Virus record (IMG/VR): IMGVR_UViG_3300046718_000201
Location: 1-32,479 of that record
Length of the DNA: 32,479 nucleotides
Source: a virus
Strand: one strand, 5' to 3'
Position 1 is the first letter of the stretch. The number at the start of each line of letters is the position of its first letter. Both the position numbers and the translations under genes were made by a program. Positions 1-31,547 of the stretch are shown here, one piece after another. The notes under the pieces were generated by a model. The model saw only the letters and a list, made by a program, of their open reading frames with translations, did no database searches and had not been told where the DNA came from.

Positions 1-114
1 GGTCGCTCCTGGGCGCGGAGGGTTCAAACCGTGCCGGCTCACTCAGCGTTACCACCCTTTGGTCACTCGCCGTAACGGCTGGCGGCCCGTGCCCGCAACG
101 GGCTGGAGGACACA
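1..114. other. Leader upstream of terminase genes, no gene seen
   Basis: No convincing coding frame is visible. The last 25 bases hold a small CCCG-CAA-CGGG hairpin followed by GGAGGACAC, a good ribosome binding site for the gene at 115. In cos-type phages the packaging start lies in this position, but no cos overhang can be recognised here. Confidence 0.5.
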
Positions 115-1642: not shown

Positions 1643-2198
1643 CGACTCGGACGACCACACCGCGATTCGCGCGGAGACGATGGCTGGCTATCAGTTCACC
1701 CCCACCTACGAGGTGGACGGCGAGCGGTTCCCCACGATTTGGAATCCCGCCGAGTGGGGCGGCCGGGTGCCGCGCTCCCATGTGCATGCCGCGATCGAGC
1801 AACTATTCGCGGAACACACGGTGTTGCGGTTCTACTATGACCCGCCCGACTGGAAATCTGAGGGTGAGTCGTGGGCGCTGGAGTACGGCGAGAAGGTCGT
1901 CATCCCGTGGGCCACTTACCGTGTCGTTCAGATGCACGAGTCGCTGAAACGGTTCGTCACTGACCTGTCCCTCGGCGCCATCACCCATGATGGGTGCCCG
2001 TTGACGGCGTTGCATATTGCGAATGCTCGGAAGATCCCGAAACCGGGTGACCGGTACCTGTTGGCGAAACCGGTGGGTGCGTACCACCAAAAAATTGATG
2101 CCGCGATGGCGTCCGTCCTTGCCCATGAGGCCGCGGCGGATGCCCGCGCGGCCGGCCTGGCTGATGAGCCGCAACGTAGAAGGGTGGTCGTTTCGTGA
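1614..2198 (+). CDS. Terminase large subunit, nuclease part (split gene)
   Basis: This 194-residue protein is the RuvC-like nuclease half of the large terminase, which cuts the concatemer during packaging. Conserved acidic residues are visible: GFDGSDSDD (D8), FYYDPPDW (D76) and KIDAAMA (D162), which form the expected metal-binding triad. THDGCPLTALHIANARKI is another strong family block. The frame opens with GTG immediately before the first catalytic strand, 8 bases after GGGGG at 1602-1606, which could act as a ribosome binding site. It overlaps the ATPase frame by 29 bases. It could be translated as a separate subunit by coupling, or as part of a full-length protein through +1 slippage. 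Removing one G from the G run would also restore a single 544-codon gene. Confidence 0.85.
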   Translation: MRIALGFDGSDSDDHTAIRAETMAGYQFTPTYEVDGERFPTIWNPAEWGGRVPRSHVHAAIEQLFAEHTVLRFYYDPPDWKSEGESWALEYGEKVVIPWATYRVVQMHESLKRFVTDLSLGAITHDGCPLTALHIANARKIPKPGDRYLLAKPVGAYHQKIDAAMASVLAHEAAADARAAGLADEPQRRRVVVS

Positions 2199-3694
2199 CG
2201 TCGTCGTTTCCGGTTACGGCGTTCGGGCCGACATCCTATGACCTGTCCCGGCCGTTGGTGTCGATGCCGGTCAGCATGGACCCGGTGGAGGAGGTGCAAC
2301 GCCTCGGCGGCGTCCTCTGGCAGGGTGTGTCCAGGTTGCGCCTCTACGACATGTACTACGAGCGTGAGCAGCCGTTGCAGTTCATGATCCCGGCGTTGGC
2401 CGCGAAGTACGGCGACCGGATCCCGCAACTGGCGATCAACTGGTTCCGGTTGGTGTGCGACTCCTACGAGAACCGCCTCGACGTCGAGGGTTTCCGCTAC
2501 CCCGGTAAAGAGTCCTCCGACGAGGGTATCCAAGAACTATGGCAGGCCAACAACCTTGACGAACAGTCACAGCAGGCACACCTCGAGTCGCTGACGTTGG
2601 GCCGGTCGTATGTGATCGTCGGCGCCCCCGACATCCCCGGTGACGCCCCTGTGATCACTGTGGAGTCGCCGTTTCAGGTGACCGCGATTCGTGACCCGAA
2701 ACGCACCCGCGTCGTCAAGCAGGCCCTCAAAGAGTGGTTCGAGATCGACGGTTCCCGTTGGGCGAACCTGTACCTCCCTGACGCCACGATCACCTACACC
2801 GTGGAGCACGGCAAGTGGACCGAGGTGGACCGGGACGACCACAATTTCGGTGTTGTGCCGGTGGTGCCGATGGTGAACCGGCCGCGGACGTTGCGCCCGG
2901 ATGGCCTGTCGGAGGCGCACGACCTGATCCCGATCATTGACGCGGCGAACAAGATGGCCACGGACATGATGGTGTCCGGTGAGTATCACGCGATGCCGCG
3001 CCGCATGGTGTTCGGGATGAAACAGTCCGACTTTGAGGACGCGAGTGGTAACCCGTTGCCGGCGTGGAAACGTGACGCCGGCACCTTGTGGGCCACGGAG
3101 AACGAAAACGCCAAGGCCATGCAGTTCACCGAGTCCGACCTCGCCGTGTTTCACAACACCATCCGTTTGATGGCCAGGTTGGGTGCGCAGTTGGCGGGCC
3201 TGCCGCCGGATGAGCTCGCTTTCGACACGGTGAACCCGCCGTCGGCGGAGTCCCGGCGTGCCGGTGAGACAACGTTCGTGAAACGCGTGGAGCGTAAGCA
3301 AACGTACCTCGGTGGGTCGTGGGAGGACGTTATCCGGTTGGCGTTGCGGTTCCGCAACGGCGGCAAGGAGGACAAGGCCGCCCGGTCGTTGGAGACACAG
3401 TGGCGTGATGCGGGTACCCCGACGCGGGCGCAGATGGCTGACGCCGTGGTGAAGCTCGTGACGGCGCGGGACGGTCAGGGTCGTTCGATCATCCCGGTTG
3501 AGCAGGCCCGTGAGGATCTTGGTTACGGGCCGATCGCGCGTGACCGGATGGCGAAGATGGATAAGGCCGCCGCCGAGGCGCAGTTGACGGCGATCCGTGA
3601 TTCGTTGTCCCCGGCGCCGGATGTCACCCCACCGGGTGCGCCGCCGGTGACGACGCCGCAGCAGGTGCCTGATGCCGTCCACACTGGAAGCTGA
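2195..3694 (+). CDS. Portal protein, SPP1 Gp6-like
   Basis: This is a 499-residue portal protein, the dodecameric ring at the head vertex through which DNA enters and leaves. It matches the SPP1 Gp6-type portals of actinophages: an N-terminal block with Y-M-Y-Y-E and NWFRLVCDSYENRLDVEGFR, a central beta-rich wing (residues about 140-240), a DLIPIIDAANKMATDMMVSGEYHAMP helical stem region, and a C-terminal crown with ERKQTYLGGSWEDVIRLAL. The last 25 residues are Pro-rich. The GTG overlaps the nuclease stop as GTGA, the usual coupling in this genome. The position directly after terminase and before the MuF-like gene is the canonical order. Confidence 0.93.
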   Translation: MTSSFPVTAFGPTSYDLSRPLVSMPVSMDPVEEVQRLGGVLWQGVSRLRLYDMYYEREQPLQFMIPALAAKYGDRIPQLAINWFRLVCDSYENRLDVEGFRYPGKESSDEGIQELWQANNLDEQSQQAHLESLTLGRSYVIVGAPDIPGDAPVITVESPFQVTAIRDPKRTRVVKQALKEWFEIDGSRWANLYLPDATITYTVEHGKWTEVDRDDHNFGVVPVVPMVNRPRTLRPDGLSEAHDLIPIIDAANKMATDMMVSGEYHAMPRRMVFGMKQSDFEDASGNPLPAWKRDAGTLWATENENAKAMQFTESDLAVFHNTIRLMARLGAQLAGLPPDELAFDTVNPPSAESRRAGETTFVKRVERKQTYLGGSWEDVIRLALRFRNGGKEDKAARSLETQWRDAGTPTRAQMADAVVKLVTARDGQGRSIIPVEQAREDLGYGPIARDRMAKMDKAAAEAQLTAIRDSLSPAPDVTPPGAPPVTTPQQVPDAVHTGS

Positions 3695-22751: not shown

Positions 22752-24155
22752 ATGGCAGTAACAAAGGTTGGTTCCGCTTTCACGTTCGGTGACACCGCGA
22801 ACACCACGACCCGCAACGTGACACTGCCGGCGTCCCTGACGACCGGTGACGTGATCTTCATGCACGTGGTGGGCGGGTCGTCCACATGGTTCCACGATGT
22901 CGCATCAACCGGTGTGACGTGGGTTCAAATGGACCTCACGAACTCCCTGTCCGGTTACCTGGCGTCGCTGTGGCGTGGGTACGTCACCAACGGGGCCACC
23001 GCGTCATCGTCGGCCGTCACCGTCCGAGCTCTCGGCGCGGACACCATCACCCCGCAGTCGTTCAAACTCACCGGCGGCGGACAAGTGTTCCGGGGCACCG
23101 ACAACGGTGGCACGTCCGGCGCGAACGCCGCGAACCAGTGGGCGAAGGCATCCTCGGGTGCGGCGGCCACCACCATCGTCGGGCCGTTCACCGCGGCCAC
23201 CACCGTCGCCGGTTGCGTCCTCTGGTCGGCCGGCGGCACCTCCCGCGGCACCCTCCCCGCCTACTCAAGCATCACCTACGAATCCGGCACCCCTGATCAG
23301 GTTGGCCTCACGTCGGGTGCCGTGCCGAACGAGGTGTCGGCATCATCAACGGATCTCACGTCGATCAGTCTTGGCGCCACCCCCGGCGGTAAGACGTTCG
23401 CGTTTTTCGATTCCACACCGGCCGCGCTCACCGGTGGGCCACGCTTGGCGTACTCGGTGGCGATCGCCCCGGCACCCGCCGCGCCCACCGTCACCGGTGC
23501 CATCGACCAGACCGACCCCGCCGTCGGTGCACTCCTCACCCTCACCGGGACAGTCACCGGCACCGCAACGTCGAGGTTGTGGCGTCAGGTGTCGGGGCCT
23601 GGTTCGCCGGCCATCACGAACGCCACCACCAACACGGCGACCGTGACCCCAACCCTGCCGGGTGTGTATGTGTTCGGGTTCACCGCCACCAATGCGGCCG
23701 GCACGTCCACTGAGGCCACGGTGACGGCGTATGTGCATCCGGCGGATGGTGACCCGGTGCCGGTGGTTTCCGTGACGTACCCCGCAGCATGGTCGCTACT
23801 GAACGCCGGGACCGCAGTGGCGAACCTGAACGACTCGGACGCGTCCACCGGCATTCAGAACGCCAGCGGCACCCCCACGCACACCGACAAGGCCACGCTG
23901 ACGTTCGCGCCACACGGCCTCGGCAACATCACGTTCGAGCTGGACTCCCTGTATGCCACCACGGCCGTTACCGCCCGGGCGATCGTTTACAAGGCCGACG
24001 GTGTCACACAGATTTACCCGACCACCGGGGGTGATGACTGGTCACCGACGACGACCTCGGCGACGCATGTGGTGACGTTGGATTCGACGGCGCTGGCCGC
24101 CATCCCGACGTTGGCGGATCGGCGGGCACTCGTGGTGAAGGTGTCGGCGCAGTGA
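22752..24155 (+). CDS. Tail fibre with Ig/PKD-like domain
   Basis: This 467-residue beta-rich protein has three parts. An N-terminal domain (about 1-240) has 'NVTLPASLTTGDVIFMHVVGGS', similar in pattern to the start of the fibre at 18888. A PKD/Ig-like domain follows (about 245-335; SRLWRQVSGPGSPAITNATTNTATVTPTLPGVYVFGFTATNAAGTSTEATVTAYV). The C-terminal domain (about 340-467) may bind carbohydrate ('TLTFAPHGLGNITFELDSLY'). It overlaps the next gene by four bases. Role is inferred to be host-surface binding. Confidence 0.66.
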   Translation: MAVTKVGSAFTFGDTANTTTRNVTLPASLTTGDVIFMHVVGGSSTWFHDVASTGVTWVQMDLTNSLSGYLASLWRGYVTNGATASSSAVTVRALGADTITPQSFKLTGGGQVFRGTDNGGTSGANAANQWAKASSGAAATTIVGPFTAATTVAGCVLWSAGGTSRGTLPAYSSITYESGTPDQVGLTSGAVPNEVSASSTDLTSISLGATPGGKTFAFFDSTPAALTGGPRLAYSVAIAPAPAAPTVTGAIDQTDPAVGALLTLTGTVTGTATSRLWRQVSGPGSPAITNATTNTATVTPTLPGVYVFGFTATNAAGTSTEATVTAYVHPADGDPVPVVSVTYPAAWSLLNAGTAVANLNDSDASTGIQNASGTPTHTDKATLTFAPHGLGNITFELDSLYATTAVTARAIVYKADGVTQIYPTTGGDDWSPTTTSATHVVTLDSTALAAIPTLADRRALVVKVSAQ

Positions 24156-26593
24156 GCTACGGCCTGACGGGGGCAAGGGGGCGCGCCACCACACGTTCAT
24201 TCAAGTTGGTTGGCGCTCGTGGCCGCGCCGCTGTTAGCCGTTCCTTCGAGCTCGTGGGTGCACGCGGGCGCGCCGCCGCGCCGCCCGCCCTCGGTGGCAC
24301 GTTCGAGTTGGTCGGCGCTCGGGGCCGGGTGGTCCCGGTCAGCGCCACCACCACCCAGTCCGCGTCGCCGTTCGAGTTGGTCACCTTGCCGCCGGGTACG
24401 TGGGCGCAGGTGGCCGGCCCCGTCGTTGACGTGAACGCCGCCATGCAGTTCGTGGCGCCGGCTCAACCGGACGGCGTTGACGTCCGGTTTCAGTCGCCGG
24501 ATGGGTTGCAGGTGTTCGACGTGTCGGTGTTCCCGCACACGGTGTTCCGCATGTCGGGTGGACAGTTGGTGCCGGTGTTCGTTTCGCCGGTGTCGGCCCC
24601 GGTGCCCGCAGTGGTTGGCGTGACACCACCACCACCACCGGACCCGACGCCCATCCCGGATCCGGGTACGGATGCGCCGCCGCCGACGCCAACGCCGGAC
24701 CCGACACCGGTGACGCCGGACCCGGGCACGGACACTACCTATCTGCCGTTCAATCTGCCGACGGTGGAGTCGCTGCAGGCGTCGGCGGCGGCTCGTGGTG
24801 TGCTCACCGCTGCACACCCGATGGGCGGCATGTGGGTGACGCCGCAGCAACCGGCGGACAACACGGTAGCCGATTATTGGGACATCAACTATCTGTATTA
24901 CCCGCCGAACAACCAGTCGTTCTCGGGGTTGACGTCGTCGGGTTCCACGATCACACACACGGCGACACCGTTGGTCAATGGTGACGTCCTGTTTTTCACC
25001 GCCACCGGCGGCGCCACCGGCGTCACGGTGGGCGCCGTGTATTACGTGGTTGGGAAGGCGACGAACAGTTTTCAGGTGTCCGCGACGTCTGGTGGCGCCC
25101 CTATCACTTTGGGGTCAACGGTTGGTTTGGCGATCACCAAGTCAACGTTGCGGAATCTGTACGGTGGAGAATGCCGCGACCGTTATGCGCGCCGCCCGAT
25201 TCGGCCGGAGGCTTCCGGCACGTGGCAGGTGCTAGACATTGAGTGGGAGATCCGCGCCGCCCAATCGGCGGGCATCAACGCGTTCACGTGGGGCACGGCG
25301 ACGCGTAACGGCATTGAATGGACCCGGCTGCAGTACGCACTCAAGGCCGCGTCGAACCATAACGCGAAGTACCCGACCCGGCCGTTTCACATCATTCCGT
25401 GGGTGCTGAACCTGTCGAGTATTTCCGGGACGCCGGCAACGGAAACACCGACACAATCGGGGCAGATCCTCGCCGACTTGTTCTCAGGCCTGATTAATGA
25501 CCCGGCCTATGCCAAGGGGTTCAGGAAACGGAACAACCGGGTACTGTTCATGCCATACGCGCCGAACGAGGCGCAGGCCGGCAACGGTAGCAGTATCACC
25601 CCAGCCGCCGGTGTCGTGACGTCCGGCATGGAGTTTTACCAGGCGCTCGACGCGAGGATGACGGCGAACGGCACCCCCGCGGATTGGTACATGTGTTTTC
25701 AGTCGAACTTCACCGGCCTGGCCGCGGGGTTCGAGTCGGTTGGCGCCGGCATGGGCCATTTCGGTTCGAGGGATTACAACACCACCGCCGGTAGCGGCAC
25801 GTCCTACGGTGGGGCGCGCACATGGATTCAGAACACCATGGGATTCACTTACCGGAATGCGGCCAGCCCGCCGATGCCGTACATTGCGCCGATTTCCACA
25901 CAGGCATTCGTGCCGCGTGGGACGCCGACGCAGGTGGGCGGCAACGGCATCATGTGGGAGTCGGGTGGCACCCTGAACCTGGAGAACTCGTGCTTGTCTG
26001 CCAGTAACCAGCTTGACCCGACCGGATGGAACATCGTCAATATCAACACGTGGAACGACTTCACCGAGGGTTCCTCGATGGCGCCGTCCAAGGGTAGCGG
26101 GTTCCATTGGCTCGACTTGTGGTCCTGGCATATGGTCAAAATGGTGACGGGTTCATATCCAACCATTGTCCGTGACGGCCTGTATTTGACGCACCGGAAG
26201 CAGAAAACCAGCGGCGTCACGTATACGTCTGTGCAGAAGAAGTTCGTTGTGCAGGCCGGTACGCCGTCGGGTTCGCCGACTACATACACCGGGACCAACT
26301 GGATTGACATTCTCGACGTCGTTGTGTATTTGACGGCGCCGGCGACGGTTGAGGTGACGTCGGGTACTAACGCGCCGGTGTCGTTCACGTTGGCGGCTGG
26401 TCGTAACCGGGTGACGGTGCCGTTGGGGAATGGGACGCAGTCGGCGCGGATCCTCCGCGGCGGCACCCCGACAGGCACCGCGGTTACATCGCCGATCACG
26501 GTGTCGGCGACGCAGTTGGTTCAGGATCTCATGTACTACGGGTGTAGCTCGTTCGCCGGTGTCGCCCGCCCGGTGCCGGTGATCGCTGACTGA
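24152..26593 (+). CDS. Tail protein with GH71/GH99-like glycosidase domain
   Basis: This 813-residue protein is the last of the tail block. The N-terminus has four copies of a short GARGR-containing repeat, each followed by hydrophobic residues and F-(E/K)-L-V. A Pro-rich hinge follows (about 155-195), then a large domain (about 215-665) with patterns of alpha-glucanase/mutanase-like TIM barrels (GH71, also GH99-like): AHPMGGMW, DYWDINYLYYP, LDIEWEIRAAQSAGINAF, HIIPWVLNL and, near residue 632, INTWNDFTEGSSMAPS. A beta domain ends the protein (about 680-813). It would act outside the cell on a surface glucan or capsule. Family assignment is by motif only, and the substrate is unknown. Confidence 0.68.
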   Translation: MSYGLTGARGRATTRSFKLVGARGRAAVSRSFELVGARGRAAAPPALGGTFELVGARGRVVPVSATTTQSASPFELVTLPPGTWAQVAGPVVDVNAAMQFVAPAQPDGVDVRFQSPDGLQVFDVSVFPHTVFRMSGGQLVPVFVSPVSAPVPAVVGVTPPPPPDPTPIPDPGTDAPPPTPTPDPTPVTPDPGTDTTYLPFNLPTVESLQASAAARGVLTAAHPMGGMWVTPQQPADNTVADYWDINYLYYPPNNQSFSGLTSSGSTITHTATPLVNGDVLFFTATGGATGVTVGAVYYVVGKATNSFQVSATSGGAPITLGSTVGLAITKSTLRNLYGGECRDRYARRPIRPEASGTWQVLDIEWEIRAAQSAGINAFTWGTATRNGIEWTRLQYALKAASNHNAKYPTRPFHIIPWVLNLSSISGTPATETPTQSGQILADLFSGLINDPAYAKGFRKRNNRVLFMPYAPNEAQAGNGSSITPAAGVVTSGMEFYQALDARMTANGTPADWYMCFQSNFTGLAAGFESVGAGMGHFGSRDYNTTAGSGTSYGGARTWIQNTMGFTYRNAASPPMPYIAPISTQAFVPRGTPTQVGGNGIMWESGGTLNLENSCLSASNQLDPTGWNIVNINTWNDFTEGSSMAPSKGSGFHWLDLWSWHMVKMVTGSYPTIVRDGLYLTHRKQKTSGVTYTSVQKKFVVQAGTPSGSPTTYTGTNWIDILDVVVYLTAPATVEVTSGTNAPVSFTLAAGRNRVTVPLGNGTQSARILRGGTPTGTAVTSPITVSATQLVQDLMYYGCSSFAGVARPVPVIAD

Positions 26594-27031: not shown

Positions 27032-27052
27032 TCGGTGCGGCATGATGCGGGG
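27032..27052 (+). promoter_or_regulatory. CATGAT -10 box, leaderless start for HTH gene
   Basis: CATGAT (27041-27046) lies six bases before the GTG at 27053, the same spacing as in the three CATGAT promoters downstream. The -35 region is poor, so the promoter may need an activator or be weak. Confidence 0.45.
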
Positions 27053-27274
27053 GTGGCTCGGTACCTGTCTACCCGTGAGGCCGCCGAGCTCGTGAAGATG
27101 ACGCCGGCGGGGTTCCGCAACCTCGCCGCGCGTGCGCGTCGCGCCGGGGTGGAGTTGCACGCACCCGAGGACACGTGGCCGGATCGGCGCACCCCGATGT
27201 GGGACCGGCGGGCGATCGAGCGTTACCGGGCCGGCCAGCCCGGATCCGGCCGGTGGGGGCCACGAGAGGACTGA
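27053..27274 (+). CDS. HTH DNA-binding protein, excisionase-like
   Basis: This 73-residue protein has a MerR/excisionase-type helix-turn-helix at its N-terminus (RYLSTREAAELVKMTPAGFRNLAARARRAG). A wing and the motif TWPDRRTPMWDRRAIERYRAG follow, a pattern common to actinophage small HTH proteins ('D.RtP.Wde..v..w..gr'). The GTG is preceded by GATGCGGG and by a CATGAT box that suggests a leaderless message. It is a clear paralogue of the protein at 27813. It could be a recombination directionality factor or a Cro-like regulator; sequence alone does not decide. Confidence 0.78.
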   Translation: MARYLSTREAAELVKMTPAGFRNLAARARRAGVELHAPEDTWPDRRTPMWDRRAIERYRAGQPGSGRWGPRED

Positions 27275-27289
27275 CGCGTTGGCGCGTCA
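27272..27289 (+). promoter_or_regulatory. Operator, perfect TGACGCG inverted repeat
   Basis: TGACGCG-TTGG-CGCGTCA, a perfect 7-bp inverted repeat with a 4-base spacer. It begins on the stop codon of the HTH gene and lies upstream of the promoter for the gene at 27344. It is the best palindromic example of the motif found six times in this region. Confidence 0.75.
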
Positions 27290-27308
27290 TTGTTCACCCA
27301 TTTGCACG

Positions 27309-27343
27309 TTGACAGTGACGCGCACGCGCGGCATGATTCTCCT
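27309..27343 (+). promoter_or_regulatory. Leaderless promoter with internal operator
   Basis: TTGACA (27309-27314), 17-bp spacer, CATGAT (27332-27337), six bases, then ATG at 27344. The start codon therefore falls at the expected transcription start. Operator TGACGCG-CACG-CGCGGCA (27316-27333) fills the spacer, so a bound protein would block polymerase. Confidence 0.8.
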
Positions 27344-27514
27344 ATGACCAACACCGCAACCGCAGCCGCCCACACCATCGACATCTACGAACTGGATATG
27401 CACTTCGGCCAGGCGTTCCGCGCCGAGTGCTCCTGTGGTTGGGAGGGCACCGCCCTTACTGGCCCGACCGCCGTCAAGGCCGCCCTCGATGAGGGTGACG
27501 CGCACCGCTCCTGA
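27344..27514 (+). CDS. Small protein with CxCGW motif, unknown
   Basis: This 56-residue protein contains FRAECSCGWEGTALTG...AVKAALDEGDAHRS near its end, a CxCGW...H pattern often seen in small actinobacterial and phage proteins, possibly a tiny metal-binding or zinc-ribbon-like fold. The start has no Shine-Dalgarno sequence, but the ATG lies six bases after the -10 of a strong promoter, predicting a leaderless mRNA. The first residues (MTNT) are shared with the gene at 28253. Function unknown. Confidence 0.7.
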   Translation: MTNTATAAAHTIDIYELDMHFGQAFRAECSCGWEGTALTGPTAVKAALDEGDAHRS

Positions 27515-27573: not shown

Positions 27574-27813
27574 ATGCCCGTCTACACCACCCACAACACC
27601 CTGAACCCCGAGGCCACCATCACCACCCTCTACGGCATCAACAGGGCCGCCCACGGCGCCTACCAGGCCGCGTGCGACGCCGCCACGGCCAAAGGTGTCA
27701 GCATCCTCGACGACCTCGCCTGCCGACACCTCAGCTCCCTGTGTGACGTCGTCAGCCTCGCCGCCGACCTCGCCGCCATGGTCCGCGACGACGCCGCCGA
27801 GGCCGGTGCGTGA
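27574..27813 (+). CDS. Small protein of unknown function
   Basis: This 79-residue protein has a polar N-terminus (MPVYTTHNTLNPEATITTLYGINRAAHGAYQAA) and two Ala-rich helices with CRHLSSLCDVVSLAADLAAMVRDDAAE. AAAGGA precedes the ATG, so unlike its neighbours it uses a conventional ribosome binding site and probably depends on transcription from upstream. Its stop overlaps the next ATG (TGATG), coupling it to the second HTH gene. No family recognised. Confidence 0.65.
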   Translation: MPVYTTHNTLNPEATITTLYGINRAAHGAYQAACDAATAKGVSILDDLACRHLSSLCDVVSLAADLAAMVRDDAAEAGA

Positions 27814-28022
27814 TGCCCCTCATCTCCACCGCCCGCGCCGCCGAGATCGCCGGCCTCACCCCCGCTGCGTTCCGCAAGGCCGCCAGCCGTGAACGCGCCC
27901 GCGTCGGCGGCGTCGACCTCCAGGCCCGCCGCGACCGGTGGCCCGACGCCCGCACCCCCATGTACGACGAGCGGAAGGTTCGCGCATGGGTGGCGGGGCG
28001 GGCGTCGCCCGAATCGGCCTAA
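27813..28022 (+). CDS. HTH DNA-binding protein, second excisionase-like paralogue
   Basis: This 69-residue protein has the same layout as the one at 27053: LISTARAAEIAGLTPAAFRKAASRERARVG (helix-turn-helix), then DRWPDARTPMYDERKVRAWVAGR. The two align almost end to end, with shared STxxAAE, TPAxFR and WPDxRTPM(W/Y)D blocks, so they are paralogues. The ATG at 27813 overlaps the previous stop; GTG at 27810 is an alternative. Possible jobs are excision control (RDF) or regulation of the operators nearby. Having two suggests different targets. Confidence 0.78.
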   Translation: MPLISTARAAEIAGLTPAAFRKAASRERARVGGVDLQARRDRWPDARTPMYDERKVRAWVAGRASPESA

Positions 28023-28026
28023 CCCG

Positions 28027-28056
28027 TTGACAGGGTGTCACCGTCGCGTCTACTGT
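28027..28056 (+). promoter_or_regulatory. Promoter of the 15-codon gene
   Basis: TTGACA (28027-28032), 18-bp spacer, TACTGT (28051-28056). TGACA-GGG-TGTCA overlaps the -35 as a small palindrome, and CTGTC/GACAG flank the start region, suggesting control by a protein other than the TGACGCG-binding one. Confidence 0.65.
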
Positions 28057-28100
28057 CTACCTCGACAGGATGACAACTCACCCGCAGGAGGTGACCCTAC

Positions 28101-28148
28101 ATGACCAAGCGTGGCACCCGCATCGGGCGCGGCACCCGCATCGGCTGA
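28101..28148 (+). CDS. 15-residue basic peptide MTKRGTRIGRGTRIG
   Basis: This is a 16-codon frame with an unusually strong ribosome binding site: AGGAGGTGA (28086-28094), a nine-base match to the 16S 3' end, at ideal spacing from the ATG. The peptide is highly basic (four Arg, one Lys) and duplicated internally (RGTRIG twice; the DNA repeat is 18 bases). It has its own promoter upstream and a perfect terminator immediately after, so it forms a complete independent transcription unit of about 140 bases. No family is known to me. It could be a peptide inhibitor, a nucleic-acid-binding peptide, or the coding part of a dual-function RNA. Confidence 0.6.
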   Translation: MTKRGTRIGRGTRIG

Positions 28149-28166
28149 CCCCCGACAACGCCGCCG

Positions 28167-28197
28167 AAGGCCCCCCGACACCGTCGGGGGGCCTTTT
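28167..28197 (+). terminator. Rho-independent terminator of the peptide unit
   Basis: AAGGCCCCCCGAC (28167-28179) and GTCGGGGGGCCTT (28183-28195) form a perfect 13-bp stem with a 3-base loop, followed by TT (a TTTT run in total). It lies 18 bases after the 15-codon gene and just before the next promoter, insulating the two units. Confidence 0.92.
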
Positions 28198-28217
28198 GTG
28201 TTCACCCGATCGGACTA

Positions 28218-28252
28218 TAGACAGTGACGCGCTAGCGTGGCATGATTCTCTT
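28218..28252 (+). promoter_or_regulatory. Leaderless promoter with internal operator
   Basis: TAGACA (28218-28223), 17-bp spacer, CATGAT (28241-28246), six bases, ATG at 28253. The operator TGACGCG-CTAG-CGTGGCA (28225-28242) fills the spacer. The block from TTCACCC (28201) to the ATG is nearly identical to that before the gene at 28551. Confidence 0.8.
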
Positions 28253-28480
28253 ATGACCAACACAGAGAACCTCCCCGCCGAGTACACGATCACCGCCGGC
28301 AAGACCGGATACCTGATCAAGTGGCAGGGCCGCCCGGCCGGTAAGGTCAGCTACCGCAACGGCGCAACGATGGCCGACGCCATCGCGGAAGCCTGGGGAC
28401 ATCGCAGGAACATCCTGATCGCGCAGGGCATCAACGACGGAATGACCCCGGCCGAGGCCATCGCCGCGGCGAACCGGTGA
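28253..28480 (+). CDS. Small protein of unknown function
   Basis: This 75-residue protein has an N-terminal beta part (EYTITAGKTGYLIKWQGRPAGKVSYRNG) and a helical C-terminus (MADAIAEAWGHRRNILIAQGINDGMTPAEAIAAANR). No Shine-Dalgarno sequence is present; the ATG is placed at the predicted transcription start of an operator-controlled promoter. No family is recognised. It resembles small accessory 'moron'-type phage genes: single gene, own promoter, upstream terminator. Product probably cytoplasmic. Confidence 0.7.
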   Translation: MTNTENLPAEYTITAGKTGYLIKWQGRPAGKVSYRNGATMADAIAEAWGHRRNILIAQGINDGMTPAEAIAAANR

Positions 28481-28495: not shown

Positions 28496-28515
28496 TTGTT
28501 CACCCGATCGGACTA

Positions 28516-28550
28516 TAGACAGTGACGCGCTAGCGAGGCATGATTCTCTT
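28516..28550 (+). promoter_or_regulatory. Leaderless promoter with internal operator
   Basis: TAGACA (28516-28521), 17-bp spacer, CATGAT (28539-28544), six bases, ATG at 28551. The operator TGACGCG-CTAG-CGAGGCA (28523-28540) fills the spacer. It differs from the copy at 28218 by a single base across the promoter. Confidence 0.8.
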
Positions 28551-28856
28551 ATGACCACCGCAACCACCGCCGCCCCCGAGTTCTTCCTCGCCAAGTGCCA
28601 CGAGGGCCACGTCACCCACTACACCGCCGCCGAGCGGGCCGACGTCATGGCGCCATGGTCGTCGGCCAAGTGGAGCTACACCAAGTGCGCCGTGGCCATC
28701 GAGGGTGGCTACAAGGGTCGCTGCAGCAACACCGCGGCGTTTACGCCTATCCGAGTCAAGGTCACCCGCACCGAGTGCGGCCCCCGCTGCACCGGCGCCG
28801 TTGGCCCCGCCTGTGACTGCAAGTGTGGCGGGGCCAATCACGGTGGCGGGCACTGA
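28551..28856 (+). CDS. Cys/His-rich small protein, probable zinc binder
   Basis: This 101-residue protein has an N-terminal part with KCHEGHVTHYTAAERADVMAPW and a C-terminal cysteine cluster (TECGPRCTGAVGPACDCKCGGANHGGG), matching a pattern of small actinobacterial/phage proteins ('C...C..A....C.CsCgG.NHG') likely to bind zinc. It is expressed from its own operator-controlled leaderless promoter. Its last codons lie in the first copy of a 36-bp tandem repeat. Function unknown; the zinc site is an inference from the cysteine spacing. Confidence 0.75.
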   Translation: MTTATTAAPEFFLAKCHEGHVTHYTAAERADVMAPWSSAKWSYTKCAVAIEGGYKGRCSNTAAFTPIRVKVTRTECGPRCTGAVGPACDCKCGGANHGGGH

Positions 28857-28916
28857 AAACGGGCCGCCATAAAGATGGGCGGCGGGCACTGAAAACGGGC
28901 CGCCATAAAGATGGGC
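28845..28916 (+). repeat. 36-bp perfect tandem duplication
   Basis: Two exact copies (28845-28880 and 28881-28916), the first covering the final codons and stop of the 28551 gene. Across the junction GCCGCC pairs with GGCGGC around a 9-base loop, so the duplication creates a hairpin downstream of the gene. It looks recent because the copies are identical. Confidence 0.9.
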
Positions 28917-29004: not shown

Positions 29005-29050
29005 TGCGCCTGGAGGGACTCGAACCCCCAACTTTCTGATCCGTAGTCAG
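29005..29050 (-). other. attP: attP core: 3' half of tRNA-Arg(ACG)
   Basis: On the minus strand this reads as the anticodon stem-loop (CTGACTACGGATCAG, anticodon ACG), variable region, T arm (GGGGGTTCGAGTCCCTCC) and acceptor 3' strand (AGGCGCA) of an actinobacterial tRNA-Arg. The 5' half of the tRNA is absent, so it is not a tRNA gene. It is the segment a phage carries to restore the host tRNA after integration. Phage genes lie on both sides, which makes it attP rather than attL or attR. Crossover in or near the anticodon loop is expected for tyrosine integrases. Confidence 0.88.
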
Positions 29051-29200
29051 CATGTCGGGTGTATACTCAAGGCGTAGACAAGGCATAACCGCAGGTCAGA
29101 GGTAATCCCATCGCATGATGTCGTGGGTTACCTTACGATGAACAAGGCCACAATATGGGGCATGAAACCGCCCCGCCACCCACCACCGAGGAGAACCGAA
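29051..29200. promoter_or_regulatory. attP arm region with repeats
   Basis: Between attP and the next gene lie AAGGC(G/A)TA twice (from 29069 and 29081), a second GCAGGTCAG (29091-29099), and an interrupted inverted repeat AGGTAA...TTACCT (29100-29105, 29128-29133). Such repeats flanking a core are typical of integrase arm-type and IHF-like binding sites. No gene is evident before 29201. Confidence 0.5.
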
Positions 29201-29532: not shown

Positions 29533-29748
29533 GTGACCACCCCGAAGCCCGCCCCCGCCGCCGCCCACATGGCCGCCGACGCTGAGTGGGACGCAGCCTT
29601 CGCCGTCGCGTGGGCCGAACTCGCCCTCGCCATGCGTGGCCCACTGGCCGAGATCGGCAAGGAGTTCGGCCGCATCCACACCGACCACCTCGCCCGCCTG
29701 GCCGCCGCCGACGGCGCCACCCCCGACAACGTCGAGCTCCGCGGGTGA
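29533..29748 (+). CDS. Small protein with HLAR-DGAT-DNVELR tail
   Basis: This 71-residue helical protein starts at GTG (29533) after AGGAG; an ATG at 29491 overlapping the upstream stop is the alternative. The body is an amphipathic helix (WDAAFAVAWAELALAMRGPLAEIGKEFGRIH). The end, HLARLAAADGATPDNVELRG, is almost the same as the end of the next gene product, so a C-terminal module has been duplicated. No family recognised. Confidence 0.65.
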   Translation: MTTPKPAPAAAHMAADAEWDAAFAVAWAELALAMRGPLAEIGKEFGRIHTDHLARLAAADGATPDNVELRG

Positions 29749-29963
29749 GCGCGCCACAGCAGAAATGCACCGTCTGTGGCCGCATCGAGGTTGTCACCCC
29801 GGACGGTCGAGGTTACCCGCCGGACATCGCGGCCCGGAAACTCGCCAAGCTCTGCAAGGCGGACGGCCACAAGGCGACCATCGAATACACCGCGGGCTGG
29901 CACCTTGCCCGCATGGCCACCGCCGACGGCGCCACCGCCGACAACGTGGAGCTCCGCGCATGA
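29745..29963 (+). CDS. Small zinc-ribbon-like protein with duplicated tail
   Basis: This 72-residue protein starts by GTGA overlap. The N-terminus has KCTVCGRIEV and a later Cys (KLCKADGH), which with the His could bind a metal. The end, HLARMATADGATADNVELRA, repeats the tail of the upstream gene at protein and DNA level. It overlaps the next gene as ATGA. Function unknown. Confidence 0.66.
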   Translation: MSAPQQKCTVCGRIEVVTPDGRGYPPDIAARKLAKLCKADGHKATIEYTAGWHLARMATADGATADNVELRA

Positions 29964-30163
29964 CCGCCACCGACGACCTCGCCGCACTGCTTGGCGCGAA
30001 CATCAGCGTGGCCGGGCGCCCCGTTGATGGCGCGCTATTGGAACGCGCCGCCGACGCCATCCTCGCCGCCGGATGGACACCACCGGGGACGACCTTTGCA
30101 GTGTGCGGCCATGGTCGGCGCCCGGATGAGTCGTGCATCCTCTGCGAACGGGTCGCACCATGA
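29960..30163 (+). CDS. Small protein, N-terminal module shared with next gene
   Basis: This 67-residue protein begins MTATDDLAALLGANISV and continues with a helix (LLERAADAILAAGWTPPG) and a C-terminal CGHGRRPDESCILC cluster that may bind zinc. Its first 40 residues align with the next product. It overlaps both neighbours by four bases. Role unknown; it belongs to the integrase transcription unit. Confidence 0.66.
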   Translation: MTATDDLAALLGANISVAGRPVDGALLERAADAILAAGWTPPGTTFAVCGHGRRPDESCILCERVAP

Positions 30164-30303
30164 CCGCCCGCGACGACCTCGCCGAGTTGATATGGGGTGC
30201 GACCAGCGACGGCCCCAACCATCGCGACTCCGATATCATCGCTGAAGCCATCGTCGCTGCCGGGTGCATGGGCACCGGTGCGTGTTTCGCGTGCGCACCA
30301 TGA
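30160..30303 (+). CDS. 47-residue protein, shortened paralogue of upstream gene
   Basis: The product starts MTARDDLAELIWGATSDG and has the helix IIAEAIVAAGCMGTG, paralogous to the gene just upstream, then ends early in CFACAP, a reduced cysteine cluster. It is joined by ATGA overlaps at both ends (with 29960 gene and integrase), which strongly supports translation despite its size. It may be a degenerating duplicate or a functional mini-version. Confidence 0.62.
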   Translation: MTARDDLAELIWGATSDGPNHRDSDIIAEAIVAAGCMGTGACFACAP

Positions 30304-31547
30304 CCCCGAAACGTCGCCAATACGGAACCGGGACCGTCCGGCAACTGCCCTCCGGTAAGTGGCAGGCCCGGTTCGACGTCGGCTACAACTCGGCCGGTTC
30401 CCGCCGCCGCCTGTCCGTCGTCGGCAACACCGAAGCGGAAGCCAAGCGGAAGCTGCGGGACAAGCAGCGGGAGGTGGCGTCGTCGGGCGCCCCCGCCGGC
30501 GACGCCAGTAGGGCCACCGTCAAGTCGTGGGCCGAAACGTGGCTCACCATCAAGGCCCACGAGGTGCGCCCGAAAACGTGGGCCGGCTACCAGTCCGCCG
30601 TGAAGCAACACATCGTGCCCACCATCGGGCACCGTCGCCTCGACCAACTCACCCCCGCCGACGTCCGCGCCGTCGGCGCCGGGGTCCGCAAGGCCGGCCG
30701 CTCGTCGTCCACCGCCCGGCACGCCCACATCGTGCTCGTCGAGCTCCTCACCGCCGCGCAACGCGAGGGCTACCCCGTCCCAGCCCGCGCCCTCCTCGTC
30801 GACGCGCCCTCCCCTGGCGTCAGCGACCGCGACGCGCTGCCCCTCACTGACGCGCTGGCGCTCCTGAAAGTGGCGGCCGGTACGACGGGAGGGTCACGGT
30901 TCGTTGCGGCGCTCCTGCAGGGCATGAGACAGGGGGAATGCCTCGGCCTCACGTGGGACCTCGTGGACCTCGACGTGGGCGCCCTGGATGTGTCGTGGCA
31001 GTTGCAGGCCATCCCATACCGGCACGAGTGCGCGGCCGAGCCGCCCTGGCCGTGTCGTCACCGGTTCGGGGGTGACTGCCCGCTACGTGGCCGCCGGATC
31101 CCCGACGGCTACGAGATCCGGCCCCTCGACGGCGCCCTATGCCTCACCCGCCCCAAGACGGCCAAGGGTCAGCGGATCATTCCGTTGGTGCCGTGGATGG
31201 CCGCCGCCCTCGACGCGTGGCGTCAGGTGGCGCCGGTGTCACCGCACGGCCTTGTGTGGCCGCGCCCCGATGGCCGGCCGAGACTGGCGCGCGTCGACTT
31301 CGAGGAGTGGGTGGACCTGCAGAACCTTGCCGGTGTCGCCCACCCCGGCGGGCGCCCTTGGTTCCTTCACGAGGCACGCCATACGACTGCGACCCTGCTG
31401 GCAGAGGCCGGCGTCGACCCCTCCACCATCATGGCCATCCTCGGGCACTCGTCGGTGGCGACACAGGCCGCCTACAAACACGTCCGGTTGGACCATGTCC
31501 GCGAGGCACTGGAGGGTGTCGCCGCACGGTTGCAGCTCGACACGTGA
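30300..31547 (+). CDS. int: Tyrosine integrase
   Basis: This 415-residue site-specific recombinase has the catalytic residues in place: R210 (ALLQGMRQGE), K286 (RPKTAKG), H357 and R360 (LHEARH), H383 (LGHSS) and Y392 (AAYKHV). The N-terminal arm-binding domain (residues 1-60, RRQYGTGTVRQLPSGKWQARF) and the SAM-like core-binding domain (about 70-165) are complete. An insertion with several Cys/His (about 241-262, RHEC...PCRHRFGGDC) is typical of many actinobacterial members. The ATG overlaps the upstream stop. It would recombine attP at 29005-29050 with a host tRNA-Arg gene. It is separated from attP by about 1.25 kb of small genes. Confidence 0.95.
   Translation: MTPKRRQYGTGTVRQLPSGKWQARFDVGYNSAGSRRRLSVVGNTEAEAKRKLRDKQREVASSGAPAGDASRATVKSWAETWLTIKAHEVRPKTWAGYQSAVKQHIVPTIGHRRLDQLTPADVRAVGAGVRKAGRSSSTARHAHIVLVELLTAAQREGYPVPARALLVDAPSPGVSDRDALPLTDALALLKVAAGTTGGSRFVAALLQGMRQGECLGLTWDLVDLDVGALDVSWQLQAIPYRHECAAEPPWPCRHRFGGDCPLRGRRIPDGYEIRPLDGALCLTRPKTAKGQRIIPLVPWMAAALDAWRQVAPVSPHGLVWPRPDGRPRLARVDFEEWVDLQNLAGVAHPGGRPWFLHEARHTTATLLAEAGVDPSTIMAILGHSSVATQAAYKHVRLDHVREALEGVAARLQLDT

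Follow-up and report, generated by a model that had tools for sequence, protein, structure and literature searches.

Phage morons are extra genes that bring a promoter and a terminator of their own (the term is used as in PMC8065619 and PMC3918226). The start-associated sequences (SAS/ESAS) of Cluster K mycobacteriophages have a 13-bp sequence, GGGATAGGAGCCC (PMC3203893). In Mycobacterium tuberculosis, most newly found translated short open reading frames (ORFs) carry no sign of selection (PMC9094748). Here we describe a 15-codon frame, the micro-ORF, and the signals that surround it in a viral DNA of 32,479 nucleotides (IMG/VR record IMGVR_UViG_3300046718_000201), the whole of which we refer to as the window. 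In this record the terminase shares about 63% identity with its counterpart in Arthrobacter phages.

The locus compares best with a phage moron. To judge from its sequence, the unit would be monocistronic, with promoter and terminator signals of its own around a single gene, and would be transcribed independently of induction; it has modules of a temperate phage on either side, namely the tail genes and attP with the integrase. Unlike a typical moron, it has a gene of just 15 codons with no known host benefit, and its base composition is not foreign (about 65% GC vs 66% for the phage), foreign composition being usual in morons but not required.

The likeness to the other systems is more partial. 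As with SAS/ESAS (PMC3203893), the neighbouring genes have near-identical repeats just before their starts together with an inverted-repeat element. However, the sequence differs, the repeats here hold leaderless promoters, and no such repeat precedes the micro-ORF. With the translated short ORFs of M. tuberculosis (PMC9094748) the micro-ORF shares a length below 50 codons and a high-GC genome, but it has its own promoter, terminator and ideal Shine-Dalgarno (SD) sequence, and its translation is a prediction.

Anatomy and surroundings of the unit

The unit consists of the following parts, given in window coordinates:

28027-28200, plus strand: whole unit, with promoter-like pair, SD, micro-ORF and terminator hairpin
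28027..28056, plus strand: promoter-like pair TTGACA-18-TACTGT; -35 matches 6/6, -10 matches 3/6 and fits TANNNT
28086..28094, plus strand: Shine-Dalgarno sequence AGGAGGTGA, 6 nt upstream of the ATG
28101..28148, plus strand: micro-ORF of 15 codons, translated as MTKRGTRIGRGTRIG; ATG at 28101, TGA at 28146-28148
28109..28144, plus strand: tandem 18-nt direct repeat inside the micro-ORF, copies 28109-28126 and 28127-28144
28167..28200, plus strand: intrinsic terminator with a perfect 13-14-bp stem, a 3-nt loop and a TTTT run

All elements named in the original prediction, that is, the promoter pair, AGGAGGTGA, the ATG, the 15 codons, the TGA and the hairpin, are present in the sequence where it had placed them. 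The -35 hexamer TTGACA occupies 28027-28032 and is separated by an 18-nt spacer from TACTGT at 28051-28056, with a predicted transcript start at about 28063. The pattern TTGACA-16..19-TANNNT occurs once in the window, both strands counted. Calling this a consensus promoter was correct for the -35 element and too generous for the -10, which agrees with TATAAT at three of six positions and is compatible with the looser actinobacterial TANNNT. Because of this low agreement the pair was missed by a general promoter scan, being absent from the standard output.

The encoded peptide has a charge of about +4.5 at pH 7 and a GRAVY of -0.98, and contains no hydrophobic stretch; these properties do not fit a type I toxin or membrane peptide. 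A duplicated RGTRIG motif had been noticed in this strongly basic product, and the 18-nt direct repeat was confirmed. Downstream, the terminator hairpin (28167-28195, stem core 28169-28193) is followed by TTTTGTG and folds at -32.1 kcal/mol, with a z-score of -5.1 against shuffles. A terminating ribosome would be clear of this hairpin, since 18 nt separate the stop codon from the stem.

The unit is situated among small genes, after the tail genes and upstream of the integrase, about 0.8 kb before the attP core. The relevant features around it are:

27810..28022, plus strand: small putative DNA-binding gene, running up to the left edge of the unit; shares 47% identity with 27035-27274
28199..28252, plus strand: next gene boundary, with leaderless promoter TAGACA-17-CATGAT and the palindromic, operator-like TGACGCGCTAGCGTGGCA
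29007..29051, minus strand: attP core, the 3' half of tRNA-Arg(ACG), from genome matches and ARAGORN
30264..31547, plus strand: tyrosine integrase (phrog_1, E 1.8e-62; PF00589)

The attP core recurs with at most 3 mismatches in 11 of 396 genomes of the phylum, and ARAGORN calls tRNA-Arg(acg) at the equivalent place in one genome locus (L179); the core in the record, being only partial, escapes tRNA calling. In a prophage, the unit would adjoin attR.

Three gene boundaries of this region, at 27290-27374, 28199-28283 and 28497-28581, are near-identical. They carry leaderless sigma70-like promoters (TTGACA or TAGACA-17-CATGAT) with the ATG about 7 nt past the -10, and an operator-like palindrome, TGACGCG-N4-CGCGTCA, lies in the promoter spacer. 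The micro-ORF promoter has no such palindrome and is therefore probably outside the control exerted on its neighbours. A weak minus-strand promoter-like site at 28243-28214 reads toward the unit, as the antisense RNA gene of a type I toxin-antitoxin pair would, but the repeat in which it sits has further copies.

The region has further features of its own. The products of 27035-27274 and 27810-28022 are small paralogous putative DNA-binding proteins, the former matching phrog_597, for which as a pair IMG/VR held no confirmed relatives. A perfect palindrome at 27272-27289 overlaps a stop codon and folds as a hairpin. A 36-nt tandem duplication (28842-28913, 97% identical) spans the end of gene 28551-28856. 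A 67-nt direct repeat, 29686-29752 and 29901-29967 (88% identical), lies at the 3' ends of two small ORFs and gives them similar C-termini, DGATPDNVELRG and DGATADNVELRA. Positions 24152-26593 encode a tail-fibre-like protein with a glycosyl hydrolase family 71 domain (PF03659, E 2e-16). PADLOC and NCBIfam returned nothing useful for the genes neighbouring the unit.

Coding signal and folding of the predicted transcript

Measured against the phage's own genes, the 14 sense codons that follow the ATG have a codon adaptation of 0.91. The codon log-odds of the micro-ORF is +4.7. Only 0.6% of wrong-frame stretches reach this value, as against 76% of stretches in the true frame; when the repeat is counted a single time, the proportions become 1.2% and 59%, respectively. 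The remaining two frames of the same stretch score -4.7 and -8.0. Between the copies of the repeat there are two differences, both third-position and synonymous, which is weak evidence with a chance of about 0.1, given that some 31% of random single changes would be synonymous. The G/C-skew test of PMC9094748 was not significant for the micro-ORF (p = 0.6; GC3 13/14 vs GC2 11/14), as expected given only 14 codons, many of them for Gly, Arg and Thr. From these sequence measures the micro-ORF is likely translated; selection on it is unproven.

A 136-aa ORF running through the unit in another frame (28070-28480) was also considered. It shows modest rises of coding signal near 28031-28093 and 28139-28165, but a strong signal sets in only with the 75-codon gene that begins at 28253. 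This ORF also encloses both the terminator and the next promoter, and we reject it.

Neither strand of the window has a second perfect match to AGGAGGTGA, which had been described as the strongest ribosome binding site there. The high translation that had been read from it was overstated and is unproved. In the predicted leader fold UCACC (28079-28083) pairs with the GGUGA in which the SD ends, leaving the SD core mostly 5-40% unpaired and the ATG also partly paired; strong translation is for this reason not assured.

The product might instead be a short structured RNA, the frame being incidental or serving only to load ribosomes. Some 135 nt lie between promoter and terminator, a length appropriate for a small RNA, and the terminator hairpin is very stable. 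Outside the terminator, however, the transcript would fold no better than shuffled sequence (z +0.5 for the leader, z +1.2 for the 66-nt coding part), and Rfam gave no family at gathering score, its best sub-threshold matches covering the terminator hairpin itself. Nor would an ideal SD at correct spacing and frame-specific codons be expected of a small RNA. We consider this explanation unlikely.

Attenuation offers another role for a short frame. Like attenuator leader peptides, the micro-ORF is short and followed immediately by a terminator, beyond which lie two genes (28253-28480 and 28551-28856) that it could regulate as a leader peptide; moreover, five of its 15 codons specify Arg or Lys. 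Against this, it has no run of a single regulatory codon, and constrained folding gave a probability of terminator formation of about 0.98 for every modelled ribosome position, with no competing antiterminator seen at the unit. The downstream genes, furthermore, have their own leaderless promoters just past the terminator. Since the terminator stays formed and those genes are separately promoted, we regard attenuation as very improbable.

Chance expectation and search for relatives

Could the unit have arisen by accident from promoter-like, SD-like and hairpin sequences? Its ORF is tiny, its -10 is weak, and no homologue was found in the collections searched, all of which would suit such an origin. 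In 200 dinucleotide shuffles of the window, an SD of at least 7 followed by an ORF of 5-40 codons was common (6 per window), an SD of at least 9 with such an ORF was rare (0.165 per shuffled window), and the combination of SD, ORF and terminator never arose. A survey of 1.37 Mb of real sequence for a U-tailed hairpin preceded by a tiny ORF with an SD of 7 or more turned up no second unit. This sequence came mostly from related phages: besides the window it took in parts of phage records with a relative of the integrase or of the 2195-3694 protein, plus a small number of other loci. The thresholds were chosen after the finding had been seen, and the shuffle and 1.37 Mb figures are a guide rather than a formal p-value; even so, the failure of both to reproduce the unit argues against accident, which we hold to be extremely improbable. 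The claim of a self-contained unit for a 15-residue peptide draws support from the anatomy, from its improbability under shuffling and from in-frame codon usage, and the unit looks real.

Neither the peptide nor its DNA had a relative that our searches of IMG/VR, INPHARED, GTDB genomes and the records of 50 related phages could find. Peptide patterns were scanned in 2.9 million viral contigs and 84,980 genomes and matched only within other genes; these patterns presuppose CGN arginine codons and a KRGTR core, and a diverged relative could escape them. On inspection of frame, the degenerate-pattern matches in IMG/VR (L005, L006) were only a dCTP-deaminase-like reading frame, and the tandem RGTRIG pattern had no match in that collection. 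The GTDB matches (L027, L028) were two starts of signal-peptide-like proteins. Similarity at the DNA level was absent from phages and limited to short GC-rich chance pieces in plasmids and in the 50 related viral records; the unit is missing from these records, as an inserted moron gene would be, but they share little of the region as a whole with the window. Using the neighbour genes 28253-28480, 27810-28022 and 28551-28856 and the HTH pair as bait yielded no confirmed relatives in IMG/VR, and gene 28551-28856 gave weak tblastn matches in phages. Candidate host families chosen by the tRNA core returned nothing in the 13 genomes searched, and a full-text literature search for RGTRIG or KRGTRI brought up only two papers, both unrelated. 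The empty peptide, DNA, Rfam and literature searches agree with the earlier statement that no described family resembles this peptide.

One of the GTDB matches bears on a further possibility, that the unit is what remains of a longer gene whose promoter, SD and first codons were left when the rest was deleted, with a terminator now following and the peptide functionless. In an Actinomycetota MAG (L028), the nine residues MTKRGTRIG, with GGAGG upstream, open a signal-peptide-like protein, and by virtue of this match our peptide resembles a charged signal-peptide start. The L028 frame has no similarity past these nine residues, however, and with just two matches in 84,980 genomes the resemblance is compatible with chance. 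A remnant would also require extra events to account for the internal 18-nt duplication and for a well-placed stop and terminator. Such an origin appears to us quite unlikely.

A candidate moron-like cassette

We favor, with about even confidence, the reading of the unit as a self-contained orphan moron-like cassette of a temperate actinophage, making a basic micro-protein. A sigma-70-type promoter would give rise to a transcript of about 135 nt, translated from the strong SD into a strongly basic micro-protein of 15 residues. Ending at the intrinsic terminator, this transcript would make expression independent of the flanking phage operons. The cassette might be constitutive or expressed in the lysogen, next to attR.

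The peptide may act by electrostatic binding; to go by its composition, nucleic acid or the ribosome is the most likely partner. That it acts on host RNA, ribosomes or transcription in lysogens, and would rank among the smallest dedicated phage genes, is a more specific proposal that we consider doubtful.

In conclusion, the cassette belongs to a known kind of element but is unusual in its size. Frames as short as 15 codons are passed over by standard gene finders. If the micro-ORF is functional, temperate phages carry peptide genes well below the usual size limits.
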